Part shown: positions 46,589 through 64,000 of the stretch, piece by piece
Layout: each line of letters begins with the position of its first letter
Position numbering within the stretch: the first letter of the stretch is position 1
Assembly (NCBI RefSeq): GCF_005377625.1
Contig: NZ_CP040098.1
Coordinates: forward strand, 3,027,279 to 3,091,278
DNA length: 64,000 bases
Source: Desulfoglaeba alkanexedens ALDC
Lineage (GTDB): Bacteria; Desulfobacterota; Syntrophobacteria; Syntrophobacterales; DSM-9756
Direction: 5' to 3'
Translations under genes and position numbers: made by a program
The notes under the pieces: generated by a model
What the model saw: only the letters and a program-made list of their open reading frames with translations
Databases searched by the model: none
Told to the model about the DNA's origin: nothing

Positions 46589-48274
46589 CTATTCGCGGAG
46601 GGCTCCATATTTGAGCAGGATGTCTCTCTTGGAGATGGATTCAGGAACTCCGGTTGGCATGCGCACATTTGTTCCGCATAGGATGAAAACCTCGTAGGCG
46701 TCGAAAATGGCGTAGCGGTCTCCCTCGAAGACAATGAGCTTGTTGCCGTTCTCCTGCCTGACCTTTTCGCGGAACTTGCGTATTCCAGTCTCCTGGCCCT
46801 TTTGTGCGAGCTTGTCCTGTTGATCCATCCATGTTTGAAAGGCGGCGGTAAGTGCCATCATGAGCACAGTAAGGTAAACATGGGATCGGAACGCGTCGGC
46901 ATTGTTTCGAGCCGGTCGTTCTATGAACCAGGCTTGCTTTGCCTCCCGGAACAAAGCGTTTTCTATTTCACTGCGGGCGTCATAAGCGTCGTAGACCTCG
47001 AGGGGTTTTTGCACCGAGCCATTGGTGAGGATGACGAGCGTGTCGGAGTCGGGATTGTTGCGTTTGAAAGGGTCGTCGAGTACCACCACAGCATTGAGTG
47101 GATTGGCGGTGAAGTCTTTGCGATTCTGATGACTGCCGCTGCCGAGCTCTCCATAGAATCCGGCCGAGGTGAGGGCTTCGATGCCCACAACGTCCCAGTG
47201 GTCCACAACGGTCGTCTTGTTCGATCCTTTACCAACCGAGCGGGCTTTCTCCCGGGTTTCCCGGATACCGCCGGCGGTAAGCGAAACAGCATCGGCATAG
47301 ACGTCCATGTTGGTTTTGGCTGGAATATAGAAAGTGATGTGCATGGTGTCATGGAGCCACCATAGGAACTTGCCGTCTATGAATCCACGGTCCATGGCCA
47401 AAGAGACGATGGTGGCATGATCCGCAAGGTTTGTGACGGCCTGCTGCACCACTTCACCGGCAAAGTCGACATCGCTCACTTCGATCGTTGCGAACCGCAG
47501 AGCAATAGGAAGGCGGCTTGCAGGGTCCCAGACCACCCATATTTTGAAGCCAAAAACGGTTTCCAGCACCTTTCGGATGCGTTTCTTCCGTCGCCGCAGC
47601 TCGGGAGCTTTTTCCTTGCTAACCTTGCCGCACCCCCGGCATCGCTCCGTGGACTGGATTTCCGAAGAATCCATGAGTGCATGGATTTTTTTGGGGAAGA
47701 AAGAATGGGCCGCCAGGATCGTCACAACGCCGTTGAAGAGCCGCTCCAAGGCACTGGCGGCGATGGCCTGGATGTAGGCGGCGATGGAATCCGGGCAATA
47801 GGGGCCACGGATGGGGGTAGGCCGCGGATCATCGCGGGATGGGTCAGAATCGTCGCAGGGCTCGGCAACAGGCTTCTTCCGACCTCTGGCAGAGGTTCCT
47901 TCACGGACCTCTCTGCCATTGAACCCTACCAGTCGCATGAGGGACTGAGAGGAGAGAATCACCGGATTAATGTGCCAAAAGAAGCGGAGCCCGGCGACGA
48001 TGCGCATGAGGTAGATGAGGATCACGGCGGGGAACTTGATATTGCTGGAACGCTGATTCCTGTTGGGATCAAGCCCCATGAAAAGCTTCATGATCCCGAG
48101 CTCTTCCAGAAAGTAGAAGAACTCGTCGAAAAGACCCGCTTCTCCGAGCCCATAGACCTCGGATATCTCCTCGCGCTCGGCAAGGTCCGAAGCGATTCCA
48201 GCCTGATCCCTGGAAGCCGTGCACCAACTGAGACGCTCGATAATTTTCTGCGACGCTTCAGCTATCGGGTTCAT
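46589..48274 (-). CDS. DDE transposase (IS4/IS1634-like)
   Basis: This is a 561-residue transposase. Candidate catalytic residues are Asp in HALMDSSEIQ, Asp in LAMDRGFIDGKFLWWL and Glu in YDARSEIENALFREAKQAWF, the last fitting the Y-(2)-R-(3)-E-(6)-K signature of IS4-type enzymes. A CRGCGK motif precedes the catalytic core. AAGGAGG precedes ATG 48274. The frame is intact, so the element may be active, but I could not define its ends. Confidence 0.82.
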   Translation of the reverse strand: MNPIAEASQKIIERLSWCTASRDQAGIASDLAEREEISEVYGLGEAGLFDEFFYFLEELGIMKLFMGLDPNRNQRSSNIKFPAVILIYLMRIVAGLRFFWHINPVILSSQSLMRLVGFNGREVREGTSARGRKKPVAEPCDDSDPSRDDPRPTPIRGPYCPDSIAAYIQAIAASALERLFNGVVTILAAHSFFPKKIHALMDSSEIQSTERCRGCGKVSKEKAPELRRRKKRIRKVLETVFGFKIWVVWDPASRLPIALRFATIEVSDVDFAGEVVQQAVTNLADHATIVSLAMDRGFIDGKFLWWLHDTMHITFYIPAKTNMDVYADAVSLTAGGIRETREKARSVGKGSNKTTVVDHWDVVGIEALTSAGFYGELGSGSHQNRKDFTANPLNAVVVLDDPFKRNNPDSDTLVILTNGSVQKPLEVYDAYDARSEIENALFREAKQAWFIERPARNNADAFRSHVYLTVLMMALTAAFQTWMDQQDKLAQKGQETGIRKFREKVRQENGNKLIVFEGDRYAIFDAYEVFILCGTNVRMPTGVPESISKRDILLKYGALRE

Positions 48275-48525: not shown

Positions 48526-48665
48526 GGGTGCAGATCTTTTGCTTCTTGTTTCCAAGCTCCAGCTTGGGAACGAGGGGAAACCGAGCTGATGCGCTTGCTG
48601 CTTCAAGGCCATCTGGATCTACCTCAGAGGGTCACCCTGCATGTCGTTCCAAAAGATCTGCACCC
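48526..48665. mobile_element. MITE-like repeat, copy 7
   Basis: A 140-bp copy with intact 15-bp terminal inverted repeats (GGGTGCAGATCTTTT / AAAAGATCTGCACCC). Flanks CACTTGAAA and AAACCCAAG do not match, so a target duplication is absent here or lost. One CCAAGCTCCAGCTTGG palindrome and the GCTGATGCG module are inside. Confidence 0.75.
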
Positions 48666-49142: not shown

Positions 49143-49559
49143 GACTAACCTCCTTACGATTCAGTTAAGTAAGTGAATACGAGTGTATAAGCATATAATG
49201 CATTGCTCACCGGAGAGGGCCGCTTTTTGGCCCGAATCCAGTGGAGCAAATGGTTGGGCAATAAGCAATTCCCGAAGCCTCTGTAAAGGCTTGAAAACCG
49301 GGCCTTGAAGGATTTGGTTTTCGCAAACCCGGAGGGTCATTTCGGGCTCCGAAGGGGGTTTCGGCGGTGAACTTTTCAACCATTTTGGTCTTTCATGCTG
49401 GACCACCGGCTCAAATTAAATTTAGCCTTCTGATGTGAATTTTTTCAACCATTTTCGTTTTTCCCGCTGGAGAGCAGCCCGCGTCTTTGCCAGGTTACCC
49501 TGCCATGAAGCCCGGCAAAGACGCTCCTTCCTCCAAGATCCGACTTCGCAAGCATCTGA

Positions 49560-49784
49560 ATGCAGATGGCTCTGGTGAGGGCGGTGCGCCGTGAGTTCGA
49601 AAAGATCCCCGATCCCCGAAAGGGCAGGCCGCAGATCTCCTTTGCGGATGCGGCCATGAGCGCCTTCGCCATGTTTTCTTTGAAGGATCCCTCTCATCCG
49701 GCCTTTGAGAAACACTGGTCGGCTCGGGATCACAACCTGCACGCGCTCTACCACATCTTCTATATTGAAGTTGAACGGGGGTGA
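49560..49784 (+). pseudogene. ISNCY-like transposase N-terminal fragment (left arm)
   Basis: These 74 residues read REFEKIPDPRKGRPQISFADAAMSAFAMFSL and on to NLHALYHIF, matching the start of ISNCY/IS1202-type transposases. The frame then ends at an early stop and the catalytic part is missing. The identical fragment lies inverted at 62770-62994. Confidence 0.7.
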
Positions 49785-50195
49785 GGTATGTCCGAAAACA
49801 GATCGAAGCCGGGCGACCGAGGCCTTACCACAGATTTTGAAATACCTAGCTCCTGCAAAAAAATCATGAAGAATTAACAATTTGTCCCAGAATAGGTTTT
49901 ACTAGCCTTTTGTAGGAACCGGCTTGCCGGCGACCAGGGATTCGGATTGCTGTCCTTTCTTTGTCAGATAGGCTGCCGGTGGTATCTTGAAGCCGACCTT
50001 GGTACGAAAGCCCTTGATGGAGGACCAAGATTCCAAAAGAGTGACATCAACGGATATGCACGAACTATGTTTGGTTTTTGCAACACTCTGTTAAGGTGAC
50101 CGCAACATGACAATATAGCACATATATCTGAGACGTACTGGAAAGATGGGTTTAGCCATCACTTTGCTCTTCAGGAGAGGGTGCAACTTTTTTTC
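49785..50195. other. Gene-free part of the left arm
   Basis: It contains a REP-like TTGTAGGAACCGGCTTGCCG near 49912 and, before the riboswitch, TTTTTTTCTTGACC (50190-50201), a possible -35 region. The -10 that follows (TAGAGG) is weak. The same T-rich TTGACC sequence occurs at about 58376 in repeat copy 8. Confidence 0.45.
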
Positions 50196-50239
50196 TTGAC
50201 CTCTAAAAAATGATGATTTAGAGGAGCAATAAATTGAGA

Positions 50240-50402
50240 GTGGCCCTCGGGCCTTGAAAGGGAAGACGGTGCGATTCCGTCGCGGACCCGCCGCCGTGAC
50301 CGGGGACGAAAGCCGCAATCAAGCCACTGCTCGCAAGGGCGGGAAGGCGCGGCGAGTAGGATGATCCGGAAGCCGGAAGACCTGCTTTCAAAGAGATAGG
50401 GC
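50240..50402 (+). ncRNA. Cobalamin riboswitch 1 (left, upstream)
   Basis: This stretch carries cobalamin-aptamer hallmarks in order: AAAGGGAAGACGGTGCGATTCCGTC, then GACCCGCCGCCGTGACCGGGGACG, AAGCCACTGC, and the B12 box AAGCCGGAAGACCTGC. It is followed 56 bases later by an intrinsic terminator, so it looks like a transcription-attenuation riboswitch that turns off when cobalamin is abundant. An open frame on the opposite strand here is spurious. Confidence 0.9.
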
Positions 50403-50458
50403 TGCCTGGCTCCTCGTGGATGTGGGGGCGCGGCATCTAAAAGTGGGATTAAAAACGG

Positions 50459-50497
50459 AATCCCCGGACGCAGACTATGTGTCCGGGGATTTTTTTA
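50459..50497 (+). terminator. Intrinsic terminator between tandem riboswitches (left)
   Basis: TCCCCGGAC (50461-50469) pairs with GTCCGGGGA (50481-50489), followed by seven T. The hairpin is strong and the U-tract good. Confidence 0.85.
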
Positions 50498-50545
50498 TGC
50501 GTGAAGGGGGTAAGGGATCTAAAAAGGAAAATCTTTAGTTTAGAG

Positions 50546-50692
50546 ATGTTCCCGGATCAAGGGAAGGAAGTGGAAAGCTTCCGCCGCCCCGCGACTGTAA
50601 TCGGGACGAAAGCCGCAAATATGTCACTGTCCTAAAAGGACGGGAAGGCGCGGTGAGTAGGATGAACGAGAGCCAGGAGACCTGTTCCGGAA
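50546..50692 (+). ncRNA. Cobalamin riboswitch 2 (left, adjacent to btuB)
   Basis: A second aptamer follows in the same direction: CCGCCCCGCGACTGTAATCGGGACGAAAGCCGC, GTCACTGTCC, GGGAAGGCGCGGTGAGTAGG and the B12 box GAGCCAGGAGACCTG. It ends about 40 bases before the receptor ATG with no second terminator, so it may control translation by masking the ribosome site. The first receptor start lies at 50735. Confidence 0.9.
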
Positions 50693-50734
50693 GCGTTGGA
50701 TCTTCAAGACCTTCGAGGGAAAGGGAAGAAGAAG

Positions 50735-52666
50735 ATGAATAGATTTATATTATGCGTTCTCCTGATGTTGATAGTCATTTTTTTACCGCACGTTGCCACG
50801 GCGCAAGGACCGGCAGAAGCAACGGAGAAAACCAGGCAAAGCGAGCAAGGTACGGTTGTTCTTGAATCCATTACTGTCACAGCCGAACGCTTTCCGGTGG
50901 AAGAAAGAGAAAGCCCACGCTTTGTTACGGTGGTGAGCTCCGATGAACTCAAGGAAACCGGCGCCAATAACCTGGTGGACGCCCTACGCCGTGTGGGCGG
51001 CCTTTCTTATAGTGCATTCGGCGCCATGGGGGTCAGCCATGGCGGCATGAACAGCAGCGTCTCGATCCGCGGCATCAAGGACGGCGAACTGGTGCTAATA
51101 AACGGCGCCCCCATCCAAGGGGCGGCCGGACACGCCTATGACCTCAACACCATTCCCATTGACCAGATCGAACGTATCGAAATCATGAAGGGAGCGGCCT
51201 CCACTCTTTACGGCGCCGATGCCATGAGCGGGGTCATCAATATCATCACCAAGAAGCCGCGACGGGTGACGGCCTTCAAGGGATCTGTGGAGTTCGGCAA
51301 CGAGTCTTACCATAACCACAGCGTCTCCGCTTTCCTGCCCGGCTTTAATGTCGGTTTGAATTACCAGCATCTGGGGAATCAGACCGAGATCTCCAGGAGT
51401 TTCACTAAGAAATACCGCTATGACCAGGACGACATCGACAAGTATGCCTGGAACCTCAACGCGGAACCGATGAAGAACCTTTATCTGGATTATCTTGGAT
51501 CCTATTACGAAACCGGCTTTGAGAAGCATTACGACGGAAATGCAAAACCTTATGAGGGAACCGATCAAGAACATCAAAAAAACTTCGCCAACCTCCGATA
51601 CGAAACCCCTACCTTCAGCGCCAAGGCCTTCGGTACTTATGATGAGATGCAGCGCAAAGAATACACCAATCCCGGTGACCCGAAGGATCGGAACAAGAAC
51701 TACAACTTCGGACTCAATGGCGACTACCGGTTCCGACTCTTCGACTGGCAGATCAATGTGGGAAGCGAGTGGGTCTACCGGGGTGCGGACTACAACAACA
51801 AGTACGGCGAGCACCATCGAAACGATGTCGCTCCTTTCCTTCAGGTGAAAAAGACCTTCCGGGAACGCCTGACTGCGACCTTGGGGGCGCGGGAGCAATT
51901 CGTTCTGGGGGAATCCGGAACCGACGATTACGACCGTTTCCTGCCCAGCTTTGGTCTCACCTATAAAGCCACGGACGCACTGAACCTTTTCGCCAATGCC
52001 GGAAAGGCCTTTCGCGCGCCGGACTTCAACGACCTGTACTATGAAAGCACCTTTCTGGTCGGCAATCCCAACCTCAAGCCGGAAGAGGGCTGGACCTACG
52101 AGGCAGGTGTAAAATATGACGATGACATGTTCCGCCTGCGCTTATCCGGCTTTTACATGACCTATAAGGACAAAATCGAGTTGGACCGTTCCAGGGGCTA
52201 CCCCCAGACGTACATGAACGCCGGAGACTATGAAAGCAAAGGAGTCGAATGGGAATTTGGTGTCAACCCCTTCGTCCGTAACTTCAAGCAGGTGTGGATG
52301 CGTGACATTTCCGTTTATGCAGCCGGATACTGGGCGGACCCCACGGCCGAAGACCCCGACGGCAGGGAATACCAGACCGGGCCCAAACTTCAGACCAGTC
52401 TCGGCGTCAATTACCTCAGCGAGCCGCTGGTGCTGGATCTGAACTCCCAGATCCTTACATCCAGGGAGCGCGATCTCGACAGCTACTCAGTGCTCAATTT
52501 TTACGGAAAATGCAGACTCCGGAAGGGCTATCTGACCTTCAGCGTGGACAACATCTTTGACGAAGAGGTTCAGGTTTACGGCGATCTGACGGAAGACGCA
52601 TCAAATCGGTATGCCTATTACGAGGTGGAGCGGCTTTTCAAGGTGGGATATGAAATCGATTTTTAA
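50735..52666 (+). CDS. btuB: TonB-dependent corrinoid receptor (BtuB-like), copy 1
   Basis: This 643-residue outer-membrane receptor has a signal peptide (residues 1-23, ending ATAQ), a TonB box-like ESITVTAERF, a plug domain with GVINIITKK and a C-terminal 22-strand barrel ending in Phe (EIDF). Placement under two cobalamin riboswitches makes corrinoid the likely ligand. GAGGGAAAGGGAAG precedes ATG 50735. The gene overlaps the CobN-like gene by 17 bases. It is one of two such receptors in the island, about as long as family members (610-680). Confidence 0.9.
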   Translation: MNRFILCVLLMLIVIFLPHVATAQGPAEATEKTRQSEQGTVVLESITVTAERFPVEERESPRFVTVVSSDELKETGANNLVDALRRVGGLSYSAFGAMGVSHGGMNSSVSIRGIKDGELVLINGAPIQGAAGHAYDLNTIPIDQIERIEIMKGAASTLYGADAMSGVINIITKKPRRVTAFKGSVEFGNESYHNHSVSAFLPGFNVGLNYQHLGNQTEISRSFTKKYRYDQDDIDKYAWNLNAEPMKNLYLDYLGSYYETGFEKHYDGNAKPYEGTDQEHQKNFANLRYETPTFSAKAFGTYDEMQRKEYTNPGDPKDRNKNYNFGLNGDYRFRLFDWQINVGSEWVYRGADYNNKYGEHHRNDVAPFLQVKKTFRERLTATLGAREQFVLGESGTDDYDRFLPSFGLTYKATDALNLFANAGKAFRAPDFNDLYYESTFLVGNPNLKPEEGWTYEAGVKYDDDMFRLRLSGFYMTYKDKIELDRSRGYPQTYMNAGDYESKGVEWEFGVNPFVRNFKQVWMRDISVYAAGYWADPTAEDPDGREYQTGPKLQTSLGVNYLSEPLVLDLNSQILTSRERDLDSYSVLNFYGKCRLRKGYLTFSVDNIFDEEVQVYGDLTEDASNRYAYYEVERLFKVGYEIDF

Positions 52667-55600
52667 GCCTCACAGTGCAATGCGGCCATGGCCGGGCCTT
52701 GCGGTGGTATGCGCCCCGGCTCTGGCGTTCCTGCTTCTGACGGGAGCAGCGGCTTCGGCGCAGGGGAATACCATCGGTTTCTTTGTCGGTGACTCCGACG
52801 CCTACACCTGCGTGCAGGCCGTCAAAAAGCTCGACCTGCCGCAGGTGGAGATCGGCGTTTTCACCGAGGAAGACGTCGCCGATCCCCGAATGGCGGAGTT
52901 TGTCAAGCGCATGGATATCGCGGTGGTCGACATCATGCCGCGCCAGCCGGGGGAATGGCTCCTGGCCAACATGGCCGCTCTTAAGCCGGAAGCCATAATC
53001 TACGCAGTGCGACATTCCAGTCACACCAGGGATTATCTGGACGCCGGCTTTATCATGGACCCCACGGTTCAGAGCTACTTCCAGTTCACCTCGGTCCGGA
53101 ACCTCACCCGCCTGATCCAATTCTTGGCCAAACGCGATTTAAGGATGGCTGTCGAAACGTCTCCACCGGATCTCCCGCCCCAAAACGCCCTCTACCACCC
53201 TGATGCACCCTCGCTCTTCGCGGACCTGGAGTCCTATGCGGCATGGTACCGGCAAAGCGGCCGATATCAGGAGAAGGGTTTATGGGATTTGATGATAGTC
53301 TTTCCCACCTCCCCCATTGATTCCAAAAAGGAGCCGGTGGACGCCCTGGTGCGGGCATACGAAGCAAACGGGATCAACACGGTCGTCTGGCTGCGGGATA
53401 TGGAGGGGTGGGACAAGACCTTAGAGCGCCTGATTTCTTCTCCTCCGCTGAAAGGCCGCTTGGGCTCCGTTACCGGACTGACCTTTAAATTCAGCTCTAC
53501 GCTCTCCGCCGATTTGCTGCCGATCCTTCAAAAAGCGGACGTTCCGGTCTTCAATCCCCAGATGATTTTCTTTTCCACCGGCGAGGAGTGGTCGGCCTCC
53601 AGTCAGGGTATCTCACCCGTGGGGATATCCTTGCAGTTTTCCGTGCCCGAACTTTCCGGTCTGGTGGAGCCGACGGTGATCGGTGTCAAGGAGCGCGTGA
53701 CAACCGACTCTCTAGAGGTCAACACCTATCGCTACGTGCCGGTGACGCCCCTGGTGGAAAAAATGGCGCGCCGGGCGGCTCGCTGGCACCGATTGCGGCA
53801 GATGGAAAACAAGGACAAAAAGATCGTCCTGGTCTATTACAACCACGGGGCCGGCAAACAGAATATCGGCGCAAGCTATCTCAATGTCTTTAGAAGCATC
53901 CGCGAAATCATCCAGGCGATGCAACGGGAAGGCTATCGTATTGAGGGTGAGCTCACCGAAGAGCAGGTCATGGAACTGCTGCTCAAATCCGGTCGTAATA
54001 TCGGTTCCTGGGCCCCGGATGAACTGGACCGCCTGCTTCGGGAGGGAAACGCGGCTTTTGTGGACATGGCCGACTACCGGCGCTGGCTGGCCGAGACCCC
54101 GCCCGAATTTCAAAAAAAGGTGATAGAGCAGTGGGGAAGGCCGGAGGATTCCAACATTATGGTCAAAGACGGCCGGTTTGTCATCCCCTGCGTCCGGCTG
54201 GGCAACCTGATCCTGGTCCCCCAGCCGGTCCGGGGCTGGAGCGATGATCCTGAAAAACTCTATCACAGCACCGTACTTTATCCCCACCATCAGTACATCG
54301 CCTTTTACCTGTGGCTGCAAAAGGTCGTCAAGCCGGACGCCATGATCAGCCTGGGAACCCACGGCACCCACGAATGGCTACCCGGAAAGCAGGCCGGATT
54401 GAGCCATATCTGTCCGCCGGAGGTGCTGATCGGCGATATTCCCAGCATCTATCCCTATATCGTAGACGATGTGGGCGAGGGGCTGCAGGCCAAGCGTCGG
54501 GGCCGGGCCGCGATCGTCGATCACGCCACGCCGCCGTTTAAAAAAGGCGGTATTTACGAAGAATATTCCAACCTGGCCGCCTTGATCAGCGAATATGAAT
54601 CCTCTGCTTCGGAAAAGATCCAGGCGGCCAGACTGGAGCGGATTCGGGAGATGACCTTGAAACTCGGCCTGGACAAGGACCTGGATCTTAAGGTGGTGGA
54701 TGACGACGCCCTGGAAAGAATTGAGCATTACCTGTTGGAACTGAAAACCGAGATGATCCCCTACGGGCTCCACACCTTCGGGGTCTCTTGCCAAGGGGAA
54801 GGACTGGAAGAGACCGCCGCGGCCATCGCTTCCAAGGGTGGTCGATCGGTGGACTTCTACAAAGCGCAGCTTACAGAATGCGGGCCGTCGGAGATGGCAA
54901 ATCTAATGCGCGGCCTGCGCGGCGGATACATTCCCCCGGCATCGGGAAACGACCCTATCCGCAACCCCGAAAGCCTGCCTACCGGCAAAAACTTTTACGG
55001 CTTTGATCCGGACAAGGTGCCTTCCAAGGAGGCTTGGGCGAACGGGGAGAAGGCGGCAAACGAAGTGATCGAAGCCTACCGGCGGAAGCATGAGGGCAAA
55101 TTTCCCGAACAGATCGGCGTGGTGCTATGGGCGGTGGAAACCATCCGGGACGAGGGGATCAATGTGGCTACCGCCTTGAAGCTCTTGGGAGTGCGCCCGG
55201 TCTGGGACCACCGCGACAAGGTGACCGGCGTGGCTCCGATTCCCGGAAGCGAGTTGGGACGGCCGCGGATCGATGTCCTCCTTCAGATGTCGGGGCTGTT
55301 CCGGGACACGTTCCCAACCGTGGCGCTCCTGCTGGACAAGGCCGTCAAGCAGGCGGCGGTGCTCACCGATGTGGAGAATTTTATAAAAAGCCACAGCGAA
55401 GAGATCCGCCGGCAACTGACAGAGCACGGGTACACGGCAGAGGAGGCGGAAAAGCTCTCCCTGGTGCGGCTTTTCAGCGCTCCGCCGGGGGCCTACGGCA
55501 CCAAGGTCGATGATATGACCGGGGCAAGCGGTCTCTGGGAAGACGACCAGGTGGTGGCCGAGCAGGGCTTTATCGACATGGTTTCCTACGGCTATTCCAC

Positions 55601-56627
55601 GGAGATCTGGGGTAAGCCGCTGAAGGAGGTGTACCGAGGCAACCTCAAAAAGGTGGATGCCACCCTACATTCCATCGGCTCCAATCTCTACTCGACCATG
55701 GACAACGACGACATGTTTCAGTACCTGGGCGGGCTTTCCATGGCGGTGCGCAAGGAATCGGGCAAGGACCCGGACGTCTATGTCTCCATGCAGAAAACGC
55801 TCGGTCAGGGCCACGTCGAACCGCTTGCTACCACCATCGGGCGGGAATTGCGCACCCGGTATCTGAACCCCAAATGGATTGCCGGGATGAAAGAGGAAAA
55901 CTACGCCGGCGCCCGGGAGATGGCGGAATTTGTCGAAAACATGTGGGGCTGGCAGGTGACCACGCCCAATGCCATCGACAAAGCCAAGTGGGAACAGACC
56001 TATGAGGTCTACGTGGAAGACAAGTACGGTCTTGAGATCGAAGAATTCTTCAACCGGGCAAACCCCTGGGCCTATCAGTCCATCACCGCCCGCATGCTGG
56101 AGGCTATCCGCAAGGGCTATTGGGAAGCGGATGAAAGAGTGAAAAAGAAGCTGGCTGTCGAATATGCCGTTAACGCGGTCGAAAAGGGGGTGGCCTGCTG
56201 CGATCACACCTGCAACAATCCTCTTTTGAATCAGATGGTGATGAATGTCATTTCTTTGCCCGGCGTACTCTCGCCGGAGGTGGTGGAACAATTCAAGCTG
56301 GCCGTGGAACAGTCGGCTGGAAAACCGTTGGATAAACTGGCGGCAGAGCGAGAGGAACTTTTGAAAGAGCTTCAGGATGGATTGCGCAAGGCGGCTCCTA
56401 GCGCCTCCGATCCGGCAACGGAAGCAACGGAGGCGCGGACCGACCGGGCCGAGGCCGCCCGCGGAGACGTGGCCCAAGCGGTGGAGGGCTACAAAATGGA
56501 AGAGATGAACCAGAAGGATGAGACCACGAATCTGCCCTCTTCGGGCGTTCAATGGGTGGCGTCACTGTTTGTGCTCCTGATTATCGGGTTGTTCGTCTGG
56601 GGGACGCGACGTAAACGACGAAAGTAG
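52650..56627 (+). CDS. Exported, membrane-tethered CobN/HmuS-like chelatase
   Basis: This 1325-residue CobN/BchH-type protein starts at ATG 52650 with AGGTGG upstream, inside the end of the receptor gene. A signal peptide (1-37, AAASAQG) is followed by the large chelatase domain with GTHGTHEWLPGKQ near 568 and ACCDHTCNN near 1183. A variable acidic linker and a C-terminal helix (VQWVASLFVLLIIGLFVWG) with RRKRRK tail follow, so the body is probably periplasmic. CobN normally works in the cytosol with CobS/CobT; none are here. Bacteroidete HmuS, a related CobN-like protein, sits in a similar gene set (TonB receptor, ExbB-like, DUF2149). Confidence 0.88.
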   Translation: MKSIFKPHSAMRPWPGLAVVCAPALAFLLLTGAAASAQGNTIGFFVGDSDAYTCVQAVKKLDLPQVEIGVFTEEDVADPRMAEFVKRMDIAVVDIMPRQPGEWLLANMAALKPEAIIYAVRHSSHTRDYLDAGFIMDPTVQSYFQFTSVRNLTRLIQFLAKRDLRMAVETSPPDLPPQNALYHPDAPSLFADLESYAAWYRQSGRYQEKGLWDLMIVFPTSPIDSKKEPVDALVRAYEANGINTVVWLRDMEGWDKTLERLISSPPLKGRLGSVTGLTFKFSSTLSADLLPILQKADVPVFNPQMIFFSTGEEWSASSQGISPVGISLQFSVPELSGLVEPTVIGVKERVTTDSLEVNTYRYVPVTPLVEKMARRAARWHRLRQMENKDKKIVLVYYNHGAGKQNIGASYLNVFRSIREIIQAMQREGYRIEGELTEEQVMELLLKSGRNIGSWAPDELDRLLREGNAAFVDMADYRRWLAETPPEFQKKVIEQWGRPEDSNIMVKDGRFVIPCVRLGNLILVPQPVRGWSDDPEKLYHSTVLYPHHQYIAFYLWLQKVVKPDAMISLGTHGTHEWLPGKQAGLSHICPPEVLIGDIPSIYPYIVDDVGEGLQAKRRGRAAIVDHATPPFKKGGIYEEYSNLAALISEYESSASEKIQAARLERIREMTLKLGLDKDLDLKVVDDDALERIEHYLLELKTEMIPYGLHTFGVSCQGEGLEETAAAIASKGGRSVDFYKAQLTECGPSEMANLMRGLRGGYIPPASGNDPIRNPESLPTGKNFYGFDPDKVPSKEAWANGEKAANEVIEAYRRKHEGKFPEQIGVVLWAVETIRDEGINVATALKLLGVRPVWDHRDKVTGVAPIPGSELGRPRIDVLLQMSGLFRDTFPTVALLLDKAVKQAAVLTDVENFIKSHSEEIRRQLTEHGYTAEEAEKLSLVRLFSAPPGAYGTKVDDMTGASGLWEDDQVVAEQGFIDMVSYGYSTEIWGKPLKEVYRGNLKKVDATLHSIGSNLYSTMDNDDMFQYLGGLSMAVRKESGKDPDVYVSMQKTLGQGHVEPLATTIGRELRTRYLNPKWIAGMKEENYAGAREMAEFVENMWGWQVTTPNAIDKAKWEQTYEVYVEDKYGLEIEEFFNRANPWAYQSITARMLEAIRKGYWEADERVKKKLAVEYAVNAVEKGVACCDHTCNNPLLNQMVMNVISLPGVLSPEVVEQFKLAVEQSAGKPLDKLAAEREELLKELQDGLRKAAPSASDPATEATEARTDRAEAARGDVAQAVEGYKMEEMNQKDETTNLPSSGVQWVASLFVLLIIGLFVWGTRRKRRK

Positions 56628-58368: not shown

Positions 58369-58640
58369 GGGTGCAAATTTTTTCTTGACCTCCCAAAAAT
58401 GAGCACTTTCCCCCTCGTTCCCAAGCTCCGGCTTGGGAACGCCCTGCCCGGGAAGCTCCAGCTTCCCTCCTGCTACAGCTGAAACTCGCTGTTTTTCTAG
58501 GGAGCTCGTCAGGATCTCGAAGTGGTCGTTCCCCTCGTTCCCAAGCTCTGGCTTGGGTACGGCCTCACCGAAGCTGGAGCTTCTGCACAGTTGTGTTCCC
58601 AAGCTGGAGCTTGGGAACAAGAAGAAAAAGATCTGCACCC
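58369..58640. mobile_element. MITE-like repeat, copy 8, inside the B12 island
   Basis: A 272-bp copy from GGGTGCAAATTTTTT to AAAAGATCTGCACCC with several CCAAGC..GCTTGG palindromes and the GGGAAGCTCCAGCTTCCC hairpin also in copy 4. Flanks GAATCAAGA and GATCTCCAA do not match. Its left end resembles sequence before riboswitch 1 (GGGTGCAACTTTTTTTCTTG near 50178-50200). Confidence 0.72.
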
Positions 58641-58741: not shown

Positions 58742-58808
58742 CGGGTTTGCGAAAACCAAATCCTTCAAGGCCCGGTTTTCAAGCCTTTATAGCAGCTCCG
58801 GGAATTGC
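58742..58808. repeat. About 67-bp repeat, middle copy
   Basis: CGGGTTTGCGAAAACCAAATCC and on to CCGGGAATTGC. It recurs in inverted orientation at 49266-49332 and in the same orientation at 63042-63109. Here it supplies the last ten codons and stop of the cbiZ-like gene. Confidence 0.8.
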
Positions 58809-59678
58809 TGTTGCCCTGGTGAAGTTTTGACGTGATTCTTTTATCTGCTTGAAACCGTTTTGTTTTTGCAGCGCCTCCATGACCCCTTCATGGACGGCCT
58901 TGCCAATGAGCTCCCCGATCTTGCTGTGTCCGCCTGTGTAGGTGACCTTCGGCCCGTTGACGCCTGAGACCACAATCGCGTTGTCCGTGCCTGTTCCGGT
59001 CGCCTGGACCGATTCCGTGTAGGAACTCTGGACGCCGAGATCCTCGAAGGCCGCGGTCTTTGCCTCGGTGAGCGTGATGATCGCCCGCGCCATGGCCCCG
59101 TCCGTAAGCTCGGCATTGGTCAGGAGGATGACGTTGACTGTTCCGTGGGGTTCTTTATCTCCTGTTTTCCCCTCGATGTGCTTTCCTTCATCCACCCCGG
59201 TGCGGAGGGCGTTGGTCCTGGCTCCTGCGGTCACCAGTGCGGTCACCACGAAGGGAGGGTACCGCTTCGTTACAACGGCGAGGTTCTTCATGTCCGCGGC
59301 TGTGCCGAGCTGGGCGATCTTTTCTTCCGGCACCCCGCTTTCCATGGCGATCCTTTTCTTGATCCCGCGCATGTAGACCTTGCCGCCCACTTCATCCCTG
59401 GTCTTCATCTCCTTACAGACCTTTTTGAAAAGGCCGGGATGGGCGGAATGGTTCACGGCGATCCTGCCCTGGATGAGGCCATCGTTCGTGGAAAGCATCC
59501 GTCTATCCTCAGGGAAGGTGACGACAAGGGTCTTTTCCCAAAATCCGTCCCTTTCGGCCACCTTTATGAAGGCTTTGGCATCGAGTTCAGCAGGAAGCTG
59601 GATCTCCTCTGATGCCCCTGCCGAAAGTGTGACAAGGAGCAGGATCAGGGTAAAAAATACCGACATGGTTCGTTTCAT
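58779..59678 (-). CDS. cbiZ: Exported CbiZ-like adenosylcobinamide amidohydrolase
   Basis: This 299-residue protein has the CbiZ signatures VTAGARTNALRTGVDEG, VNVILLTNAELTDGAMARAI and ATGTGTDNAIVVSG. CbiZ cuts the amide bond between the corrin ring and the aminopropanol arm, giving cobyric acid for corrinoid remodelling. Unlike classical cytosolic CbiZ, it has a signal peptide (residues 1-22, SAGASEE), so it should act in the periplasm. Its start is ATG 59678, with AAGGAG upstream. The C-terminal AIPGAAIKA is encoded by a repeat, so the original C-terminus is altered. Confidence 0.88.
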   Translation of the reverse strand: MKRTMSVFFTLILLLVTLSAGASEEIQLPAELDAKAFIKVAERDGFWEKTLVVTFPEDRRMLSTNDGLIQGRIAVNHSAHPGLFKKVCKEMKTRDEVGGKVYMRGIKKRIAMESGVPEEKIAQLGTAADMKNLAVVTKRYPPFVVTALVTAGARTNALRTGVDEGKHIEGKTGDKEPHGTVNVILLTNAELTDGAMARAIITLTEAKTAAFEDLGVQSSYTESVQATGTGTDNAIVVSGVNGPKVTYTGGHSKIGELIGKAVHEGVMEALQKQNGFKQIKESRQNFTRATAIPGAAIKA

Positions 59679-59765
59679 ACCTTCTCCTTTTCTCCAAACA
59701 GGATGGAATCCCCACCTTTCCCCCTTTATCAAGGGTAACGAGGGGCGAATCGGTATTCATCTGGA

Positions 59766-61817: not shown

Positions 61818-61863
61818 CTTTTCCTCCGTTTCCCGCCCGCGCGGGTTTTCCGAGTGTGGTATT

Positions 61864-62010
61864 CCCGGAACAGGTCTCCTGGCTCTCGTTCATCCTACTC
61901 ACCGCGCCTTCCCATCCCTTCAGGACAGTGGCTTTGTCGCGGCTTTCGTCCCGATTACAGTCGCGGGGCGGCGGAAGCTTTCCACTTCCTTCCCTTGATC
62001 CGGGAGCATC
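61864..62010 (-). ncRNA. Cobalamin riboswitch 3 (right, adjacent to btuB copy 2)
   Basis: Minus-strand aptamer matching riboswitch 2: CCGCCCCGCGACTGTAATCG, then GCCACTGTCC, GGGAAGGCGCGGTGAGTAGG and GAGCCAGGAGACCTG. It ends about 47 bases before the receptor ATG at 61817. Confidence 0.9.
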
Positions 62011-62057
62011 TCTAAACTAAAGATTTTCCTTTTTAGATCCCTTACCCCCTTCACGCA

Positions 62058-62096
62058 TAAAAAAATCCCCGGACACATAGTCTGCGTCCGGGGATT
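62058..62096 (-). terminator. Intrinsic terminator between tandem riboswitches (right)
   Basis: The inverted copy of the left terminator: minus-strand TCCCCGGAC..GTCCGGGGA hairpin followed by seven T. Confidence 0.85.
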
Positions 62097-62156
62097 CCGT
62101 TTTTAATCCCACTTTTAGATGCCGCGCCCCCACATCCACGAGGAGCCAGGCAGCCC

Positions 62157-62319
62157 TATCTCTTTGAAAGCAGGTCTTCCGGCTTCCGGATCACCCTACT
62201 CGCCGCGCCTTCCCGCCCTTGCGAGCAGTGGCTTGATTGCGGCTTTCGTCCCCGGTCACGGCGGCGGGTCCGCGACGGAATCGCACCGTCTTCCCTTTCA
62301 AGGCCCGAGGGCCACTCTC
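62157..62319 (-). ncRNA. Cobalamin riboswitch 4 (right, upstream)
   Basis: Minus-strand aptamer matching riboswitch 1 (AAGCCACTGC, GGCGCGGCGAGTAGG, AAGCCGGAAGACCTGC). Together with riboswitch 3 it forms the second tandem pair. Confidence 0.9.
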
Positions 62320-62769
62320 AATTTGTTGCTCCTCTAAATCATCATTTTTTTGAGGTCAAGAAAAAAGTTGCACCCTCTCTTGAAGAGCAAAGTGATAGCT
62401 AAACCCATCTTTCCAGTACGTCTCAGATATATGTGCGATATCGTCATGTTACGGTCACCCTAACAGAGTGTTGCAAAAACCAAATATAGTTCGTGCATAT
62501 CCGTTGATGTCACTCTTTTGGAATCTTGGTCGTCCATCAAGGGCTTTCGTACCAAGGTCGGCTTCAAGATACCACCGGCAGCCTATCTGACAAAGAAAGG
62601 ACAGCAATCCGAATCCCTGGTCGCCGGCAAGCCGGTTCCTACAAAAAGCCAGTAAAACCTATTCTGGGACAAATTTTTAATTCTTCATGATTTTTTTTTC
62701 AGGAGCTAGTATTTCAAAATCTGTGGTAAGGCTACGGTCGCCCGGCTTCGATCTGTTTTCGGACATACC

Positions 62770-62994
62770 TCACCCCCGTTCAACTTCAATATAGAAGGTG
62801 TGGTAGAGCGCGTGCAGGTTGTGATCCCGAGCCGACCAGCGTTTCTCAAAGGCCGGATGAGAGGGATCCTTCAAAGAAAACATGGCGAAGGCGCTCATGG
62901 CCGCATCCGCAAAGGAGATCTGCGGCCTGCCCTTTCGGGGATCGGGGATCTTTTCGAACTCACGGCGCACCGCCCTCACCAGAGCCATCTGCAT
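62770..62994 (-). pseudogene. ISNCY-like transposase N-terminal fragment (right arm)
   Basis: Same 74-residue fragment as at 49560-49784, with two residue differences (RWSARD and HTFYIEV). It is truncated and inactive. Confidence 0.7.
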
Positions 62995-63307
62995 TCAGAT
63001 GCTTGCGAAGTCGGATCTTGTCGGAGCCCGAAACGACCCCGCGGGTTTGCGAAAACAAAATCCTTCAAGCCCCGCTTTTCAAACCTTTACAGGGGCTACG
63101 GGAATTGCTGACTAACCCCCATGCCCGGGCACGGGCAGAACGAAGGATGAAAATTCGCGATACGGGGCAGTGGGGTAAAGCCCAAAAACATGGCACAATA
63201 AGCAATCGGCATTATTGGTGAATCTTCTATTTTCATGTAAAAATTATAAAATAAAGTTTTTCAAAGAGCGAAATATACGGTAGAAGAGGATAGACAAATC
63301 GGAATTC

Positions 63308-63760
63308 GTGTGCGATAAATGGAATGAAATTTTTCTCTATCCTGGGGGCCATCGGTTGGAGTGCTGCCAAGTGAGCAAAGACGGGACAAAGCTTTATCAG
63401 GCCGAGGCTCAAGCCTGCCGACAGTGTGAAACCCAGCCCCGGTGTTGCCGTTCGAAGTCTGGTCGCCCTCGAACCGTCAAAATCGATAACTACGAGCACT
63501 TGCGTCAAGCAATGGCACGCAAGATGAGTGAACCGAAAGCGCGGGAAGCCTATCGCAGACGCAAGGCGTTTGCGGGACCCGTCTTTGGGCACATGAAAAA
63601 TCTTGGGTTTCGAGGTCTACGCCTGCGGGGTCTGGAAAAGGTCAAGGGCGAGTTTGCCCTGATGAGCGCTGCTCACAACTTCCTGAAAATTGTGAGGGCC
63701 GTGGTGAGGGGTATCCATTTCGAGCAGGGGCAGATGATGGAGCAGGCTGCCTCAAGAGGC
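63308..63760 (+). pseudogene. IS1182-family transposase C-terminal fragment
   Basis: The sequence CRQCETQPRCCRSKSGRPRT, REAYRRRKAFAGPVFGHMKN and GLEKVKGEFALMSAAHNFLK matches the C-terminal end of IS1182-type transposases (cysteine-rich block, then the Glu-like EPVFGQIK region, here GPVFGHMK). The catalytic N-terminal part is absent. The open frame starts at GTG 63308 and ends at 63871. No gene follows to the window end. Confidence 0.7.
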
Positions 63761-64000
63761 AGCTTGCTCCTTTTTGAATGCCTTTTCAGAGACTGCTTAT
63801 GCACGACATCCCCCATCCGCGAGCAAAGACTTTCTCGTTACGGTAGTTTCACCCGACATGTTTGCTTATGAATTATGTATGGCTCGAATTCCAAGCCACA
63901 TTCTCGGACAAACTCTTAGCTTATTTTCAAGGGGAAAATTCCAATTCCCGTTGAACCAAGGCCGTCTTGGTCAAGAATGAACTATAAAACAAGGAGGATT

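Follow-up and report, generated by a model that had tools for sequence, protein, structure and literature searches.

Tandem riboswitches that respond to one ligand are usually taken to be duplicates that make the response sharper. In Desulfoglaeba alkanexedens ALDC, two receptor operons are each preceded by two cobalamin aptamers in series, which raises the question of whether the second aptamer is such a duplicate or a separate switch that acts at another step. This question was addressed in a window of 64,000 nucleotides (the whole stretch of DNA that was analysed) and in related leaders across the phylum.

Two aptamers and one terminator in each leader

A both-strand covariance search of the whole 64-kb window with cmscan returned four RF00174 matches, the sole Rfam matches above gathering thresholds (31.5 bits for RF00174; all four at E 1.8e-21 or better). 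All four are full length, spanning model positions 1–189 with the core and the B12 box. Each arm of an inverted repeat holds exactly two of them (91.8–109.6 bits), that is, two complete aptamers of the same class in one leader, not a single significant one. The preliminary description had placed a pair of aptamers in series at 50240–50692 and the same layout on the other arm at 61864–62319. Both placements are right and slightly narrow relative to the RF00174 bounds, and the second arm is a mirror copy on the minus strand, terminator included. The strong terminator claimed after the first aptamer, and the lack of one after the second, were both confirmed by scan. The features of the two arms are as follows.

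49264–50690, plus strand: inverted repeat arm A, comprising upstream DNA, aptamer 1, the terminator and most of aptamer 2
50221–50403, plus strand: aptamer 1 of arm A, ordinary transcriptional type (RF00174, 109.6 bits, E 1.5e-26)
50409–50429, plus strand: P13/L13 hairpin of platform 1, GCUCC[UCGUGGAUGU]GGGGGC, from inspection and folds
50445–50464, plus strand: candidate antiterminator, GGGAUU[AAAAACGG]AAUCCC, with bases in common with the 5′ arm of the terminator
50458–50496, plus strand: intrinsic terminator of arm A, GAATCCCCGGACGCAGACTATGTGTCCGGGGATTT followed by a U tract (7 U), stem of about −26 kcal/mol
50537–50704, plus strand: aptamer 2 of arm A, second-position lineage, without the P2 hairpin (RF00174, 91.8 bits)
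50700–50736, plus strand: putative translational platform of arm A, P13 CCUUC[GAGG]GAAAGG (50710–50724)
50735–52666, plus strand: TonB-dependent receptor 1 (BtuB-like; Pfam PF00593, PF07715)
61865–63109, minus strand: inverted repeat arm B, ending in the 3′ strand of aptamer 2 P1
62334–62152, minus strand: aptamer 1 of arm B (RF00174, 109.2 bits)
62059–62097, minus strand: intrinsic terminator of arm B, with the same sequence as in arm A
62036–61852, minus strand: aptamer 2 of arm B, second-position lineage (RF00174, 94.2 bits)
61823–61845, minus strand: putative translational platform of arm B, P13 CCCGC[GCGG]GCGGG (61832–61845)
61817–59766, minus strand: TonB-dependent receptor 2 (BtuB-like; Pfam PF00593, PF07715)
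59732–58779, minus strand: cbiZ (CbiZ, PF01955), downstream of receptor 2

The gaps between aptamers 1 and 2 (133 and 115 nt) are occupied by the first platform and its terminator, and about 30 nt separate the 3′ end of aptamer 2 from the start codon of the receptor. The plus-strand operon continues from the btuB-like receptor gene into genes for a CobN-like chelatase, a DUF2162 protein, an ExbB-like protein and a DUF2149 protein. From this gene context (BtuB-like receptors, CobN-like chelatase, CbiZ), the aptamers presumably sense corrinoids. The CobN-like chelatase subunit (52611–56627) has an apparent signal peptide as well as a membrane segment at its C terminus; CbiZ (58779–59732), a corrinoid-remodelling protein, also has an apparent signal peptide and is possibly periplasmic. 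The 3.37-Mb single-contig genome contains 11 RF00174 matches over the cut-off, and five of the seven outside the window have terminator platforms in a hairpin-plus-U-tract scan.

The terminator is a 15-pair hairpin with a U tract, positioned within 55 nt of aptamer 1, and the fold of the 93-nt platform 1 has a z-score of −4.4 relative to shuffled sequences. When the 3′ arm of the terminator is removed, the antiterminator hairpin appears in the fold. Related leaders carry GGAUG[AAAAACGG]CAUCC or a variant of it, which likewise overlaps the 5′ arm of their terminator. On the kissing-loop model of PMC10653944, the platform 1 loop CGUGG can form a kissing interaction with L5 (CCCG) if one base is bulged, and a CGNGG loop is found again in most related leaders.

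Lineage of the second aptamer

RF00174 matches were listed for the three families of the host order and most were retrieved, giving 185 aptamers from 39 genomes, the window's four included. In a FastTree phylogeny of these short RNAs, all second aptamers fall in one clade (support 1.0) of 16 tips, none of which is of the terminator type. In a 214-tip tree with phylum-wide additions, also built from short RNAs, 25 of 25 second aptamers group together with one outsider, and the first aptamers are scattered, close to ordinary switches from their own or related genomes. Because the second aptamers form a lineage separate from the first, in a different part of the tree, origin of the pairs by tandem duplication is ruled out. 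The difference between the two aptamers noted at the outset is thereby strengthened to a division into two lineages.

The second-type aptamers have an invariant core. Relative to ordinary aptamers, their fixed or nearly fixed differences comprise the absence of P2, an A in place of G after P5, a G in place of A in the B12 box, and changes in L5. In P5, a G-C pair is replaced by C-G with compensation; P7, as read, has one base fewer on each side, a compensated loss of one pair. These features bear on whether aptamers 1 and 2 respond to different corrinoids or corrinoid states (adenosyl versus other upper ligands, or base-on versus base-off forms), which would make the leader a two-input gate. 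Such a gate would fit the separate lineages and the fixed changes seen in P5, L5, P7 and the B12 box, as well as the presence of cbiZ, for corrinoid remodelling, in the btuB2 operon; in a Syntrophaceae record (L084), a second-type aptamer and its receptor directly follow an apparent cbiZ. However, both aptamers keep the core and the P8–P12 region and match RF00174. In addition, because broad sensitivity to corrinoids is reported for cobalamin riboswitches (PMC9600662), sequence difference alone is no proof of a different ligand, and we regard the two-input reading as unlikely.

To follow the lineage further, a covariance model (R1) was prepared from 15 second aptamers and searched over 395 genomes of the phylum. 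R1, for which E-values are rough, scores the arm A aptamer 2 at 161.4 bits (50549–50693) and that of arm B at 154.6 bits. The search yielded 10 new members of at least 115 bits, and the next matches, at about 108 bits or less, are ordinary in behaviour. Eight of the ten have an RF00174 aptamer 118–300 nt upstream, compared with none of nine ordinary controls; seven of these eight tandems have a strong terminator between the aptamers, and none has one after the second. Three further class-level searches, which were out of sample, added 14 members, of which 12 stand in tandem (10 complete, and two truncated by contig ends, in which the last part of aptamer 1 or the terminator behind it is still visible). 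One of the remaining two lies downstream of another receptor gene and the other, a borderline match, is alone. Altogether, 31 of 40 second-type aptamers are second in a tandem, five or six lie within operons, one is at a contig edge and two are alone; ordinary aptamers in second place number 0 of 170 in the host order. In three of the genomes (G015, G031 and G038), a gene stands between an upstream terminator-type switch and a second-type aptamer of the same clade. Similarly, in L172, L173 and L174 a terminator-type cobalamin switch heads the operon and the second-type aptamer lies inside, before the next gene.

Three candidates were set aside. G324b (108 bits with R1) groups with ordinary aptamers in the tree, and G038:C371 is degenerate and was left uncounted. 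G339b was considered as a tandem with a decayed first aptamer; an Rfam search that allowed E-values up to 0.5 detected none upstream, and it was counted as solitary. Beyond the phylum, aptamers that precede TonB receptors score mostly 31–45 bits with R1, with one Nitrospinaceae record at 88, versus 115–170 for the second aptamers.

These comparisons suggest that aptamer 2 is no copy of aptamer 1, and that it belongs to a separate lineage specialised for a position next to the ribosome-binding site and behind another switch or gene. More tentatively, it may be a distinct subtype that evolved for this non-leading position, adjusted in its affinity, its kinetics or the corrinoid it prefers so as to shut down mRNA that got past the first switch, and passed on as a unit through recombination inside its conserved stretch; this fuller account is possible, and we hold it at somewhat below even chance.

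Switch order and the second platform

Platforms were classed by a uniform hairpin-plus-U-tract scan of the downstream sequence. The 185 aptamers of the order divide into 131 of the terminator type, 46 near a ribosome-binding site without a terminator, and 8 that are unclear. BtuB2 homologs within the order often have two upstream aptamers. When a same-leader pair is defined by a gap below 600 nt and the degenerate G038:C371 is left out, the order contains 10 pairs, and in all 10 the terminator type is first and the ribosome-binding-site type second; an eleventh such pair occurs in a SeepSRB2 record (L069). The first switch of a pair must act on transcription and the second is free to act either way, so the uniformity of the second type is the informative part of this result. 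From partly fragmented comparison genomes, 29 tandem leaders are fully resolved, the window's two included, and two more are cut by contig ends. They come from many families of the phylum and are related by descent, so their counts are not independent events. A strong intrinsic terminator follows aptamer 1 in 28 of the 29; in the exception (G336), the hairpin at this place lacks a U tract. In every leader, aptamer 2 adjoins the ribosome-binding site, which is preceded by a covarying P13 hairpin, and an intrinsic terminator follows aptamer 2 in none of the 29, one ambiguous leader (G036) aside. In G036, a U run comes after the hairpin at the ribosome-binding site, which gives this hairpin a possible second role as a terminator.

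In the window, the scan found no intrinsic terminator from aptamer 2 up to the start codons at 50735 (plus strand) and 61817 (minus strand); in neither arm does each aptamer have its own terminator. In arm A, a lower stem (AUCUUC/GAAGAU) encloses the Shine-Dalgarno sequence up to the start codon, and in arm B the Shine-Dalgarno sequence is GGAGG at 61823–61827 (minus strand). Across leaders, platform 2 consists of a 6-bp hairpin with a loop that is usually GNGG, placed immediately 5′ of the Shine-Dalgarno sequence. This P13 hairpin covaries in 22 leaders: double-change cells number 26 versus 7.5 in shuffles, and the covariation score is 0.626 versus 0.280, a value equalled by 0 of 500 shuffles and higher than that of every slid register. 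The loops match L5 (CCCG) in the manner of a kissing loop, either as CGG against CCG or with one bulged base. L5 is nearly invariant across the leaders, and base changes in the kissing loop are too few for a covariation count.

The predicted pairing of the Shine-Dalgarno sequence averages 0.65 across leaders, versus 0.49 with shuffled linkers (Wilcoxon p = 4e-4), and is only 0.42 in arm A. In arm B, the platform alone leaves the sequence mostly open (paired probability of 0.18), and masking the 3′ strand of P1 raises this value to 0.62. Strand exchange with P1 would fit arm B alone; as a general switch of platform 2 it is unsupported, since masking P1 across leaders gives no rise in pairing (p = 0.085, slightly in the opposite direction). 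The position of platform 2, the missing terminator and the covarying P13 argue for action at the ribosome-binding site, with a predicted occlusion that is partial in the window.

A different proposal would be that aptamer 2 is a switch of the same kind that only steepens the response, with no translational role and with another form of termination, such as by Rho. Pseudo-cooperativity is indeed the published description of AdoCbl doublets of one class (PMC9481103). The proposal is nevertheless very unlikely given the lack of an aptamer 2 terminator in the 29 complete tandems (G036 being ambiguous), against 131 of 185 aptamers with one in the order, and given a second platform that is a covarying hairpin adjoining the ribosome-binding site. 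That aptamer 2 is a decayed, functionless leftover of duplication is hardly credible, despite one degenerate member (G038:C371), because leftovers would resemble the neighbouring aptamer 1, whereas aptamer 2 has its own conserved lineage, an invariant core and a covarying platform across the phylum.

We consider it likely that the mRNA of each receptor is under the control of two independent cobalamin OFF switches, each working at its own step, in a bi-mechanism tandem. The transcriptional and then translational control suggested in the preliminary description is supported, at the level of sequence, by the recurrence of this order in diverged leaders of many genera and by the covariation in platform 2. 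In the first step, a corrinoid bound to aptamer 1 would stabilise P13 through an L5–L13 kissing loop, an interaction known from cobalamin riboswitches (PMC10653944, PMC9600662). The stabilised P13 would disfavour the antiterminator, and RNA polymerase would stop at the terminator (50458–50496 in arm A). In the second step, transcripts that read through would carry aptamer 2, and its ligand-bound form would keep the Shine-Dalgarno region closed by means of a kissing loop and the P13 hairpin, thereby silencing mRNA that is already made. The first switch would set whether an mRNA is completed, and the second whether the completed mRNA is translated.

Known tandems and the history of the two leaders

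AdoCbl tandems made up less than 1% of AdoCbl leaders in a 2007 survey (PMC2258182), and 26 AdoCbl doublets are counted in a 2022 review (PMC9481103, which cites Sudarsan 2006). Like the present leaders, these doublets have two RF00174 aptamers per leader, and each aptamer is regarded as an OFF switch in its own right. In contrast to the leaders studied here, they are described as pseudo-cooperative, and the text of the review names no AdoCbl bi-mechanism tandem and no special lineage of second aptamers; its list may include some of the present leaders. The term bi-mechanism is the review's own, with SAM-II/SAM-V as its main example, and its tandems are not all sorted by mechanism (PMC9481103). 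SAM-II/SAM-V resembles the arrangement proposed here in having a terminator first, action at the ribosome-binding site second and two structurally distinct aptamers for the same nutrient; unlike in that case, the two present aptamers fall within a single Rfam family and presumably sense corrinoids. The tandem TPP elements of Desulfovibrio thiSGHFE are likewise a delta-proteobacterial tandem in a cofactor pathway, but each element there has a terminator and only the first has one here (PMC545781). The P13/L13 hairpin that adjoins the ribosome-binding site, with a CGG-type loop facing CCG in L5, is shared with the translational riboswitches E. coli btuB and env8HyCbl, which, unlike aptamer 2, act singly (PMC10653944).

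No earlier report of AdoCbl bi-mechanism tandems was found in the open literature searched, and the present leaders appear to extend the known types by AdoCbl/AdoCbl bi-mechanism tandems in which the second aptamer is a dedicated one. Their second switch, found phylum-wide and almost only in second place, is of a separate lineage and not the duplicate of the usual explanation. As natural parts, these leaders make the benefit of a second, translational checkpoint testable, and the window's arms form a natural test pair, with near-identical first switches and gene-specific second platforms.

The arms of the inverted repeat (1.2–1.4 kb) are 97–98% identical over most of their length, and a 176-nt segment is missing from arm B. 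Because the repeat ends inside the 3′ strand of aptamer 2 P1, the second platforms are gene-specific; past this point, platforms and genes are unrelated in sequence and alike in layout. A genome of another class (G541; L347) encodes a receptor that is 94% identical to BtuB1 over 486 residues and has a nearly identical tandem leader, arm A platform 2 included. The tandem leader therefore probably belongs to btuB1. The likeness itself probably reflects either a riboswitch–receptor cassette that moved between lineages or contamination of one assembly. G324 contains a receptor with a start region like that of btuB2, and the aptamer of this receptor is a single second-type one that lies downstream of another gene. 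The most economical history is that arm B arose as a copy of the btuB1 leader that recombined with btuB2's own second aptamer and kept the btuB2 ribosome-binding-site platform. By such an inverted duplication, with recombination inside aptamer 2, btuB1 and btuB2 would share one leader and each retain its own platform.

Amid the near-identity of the arms, differences cluster in P10–P11 of aptamer 2 (50617–50643 and the arm B counterpart). In this cluster G541 mostly equals arm B, and in the ribosome-binding-site platform it equals arm A, a mosaic that suggests gene conversion. The receptor operons face each other within the inverted repeat, and the 11-kb segment could be inverted if one arm recombined with the other, which would still leave each operon under a leader. 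By eye, the arms begin in an apparent truncated IS4-type transposase (49529–49845 and 62709–63025); a complete transposase lies at 46589–48274 and a further fragment at 63308–63871. Copies of a palindromic repeat (GTTCCCAAGCT..AGCTTGGGAAC) surround the operons at 48542–48581, 58411–58450, 58531–58570 and 58595–58640. In another record (L079:995-1254), a dispersed GTCATTGCGAGGAGCAAAGCGACGTGGCAATC repeat stands between an aptamer and its apparent terminator platform.
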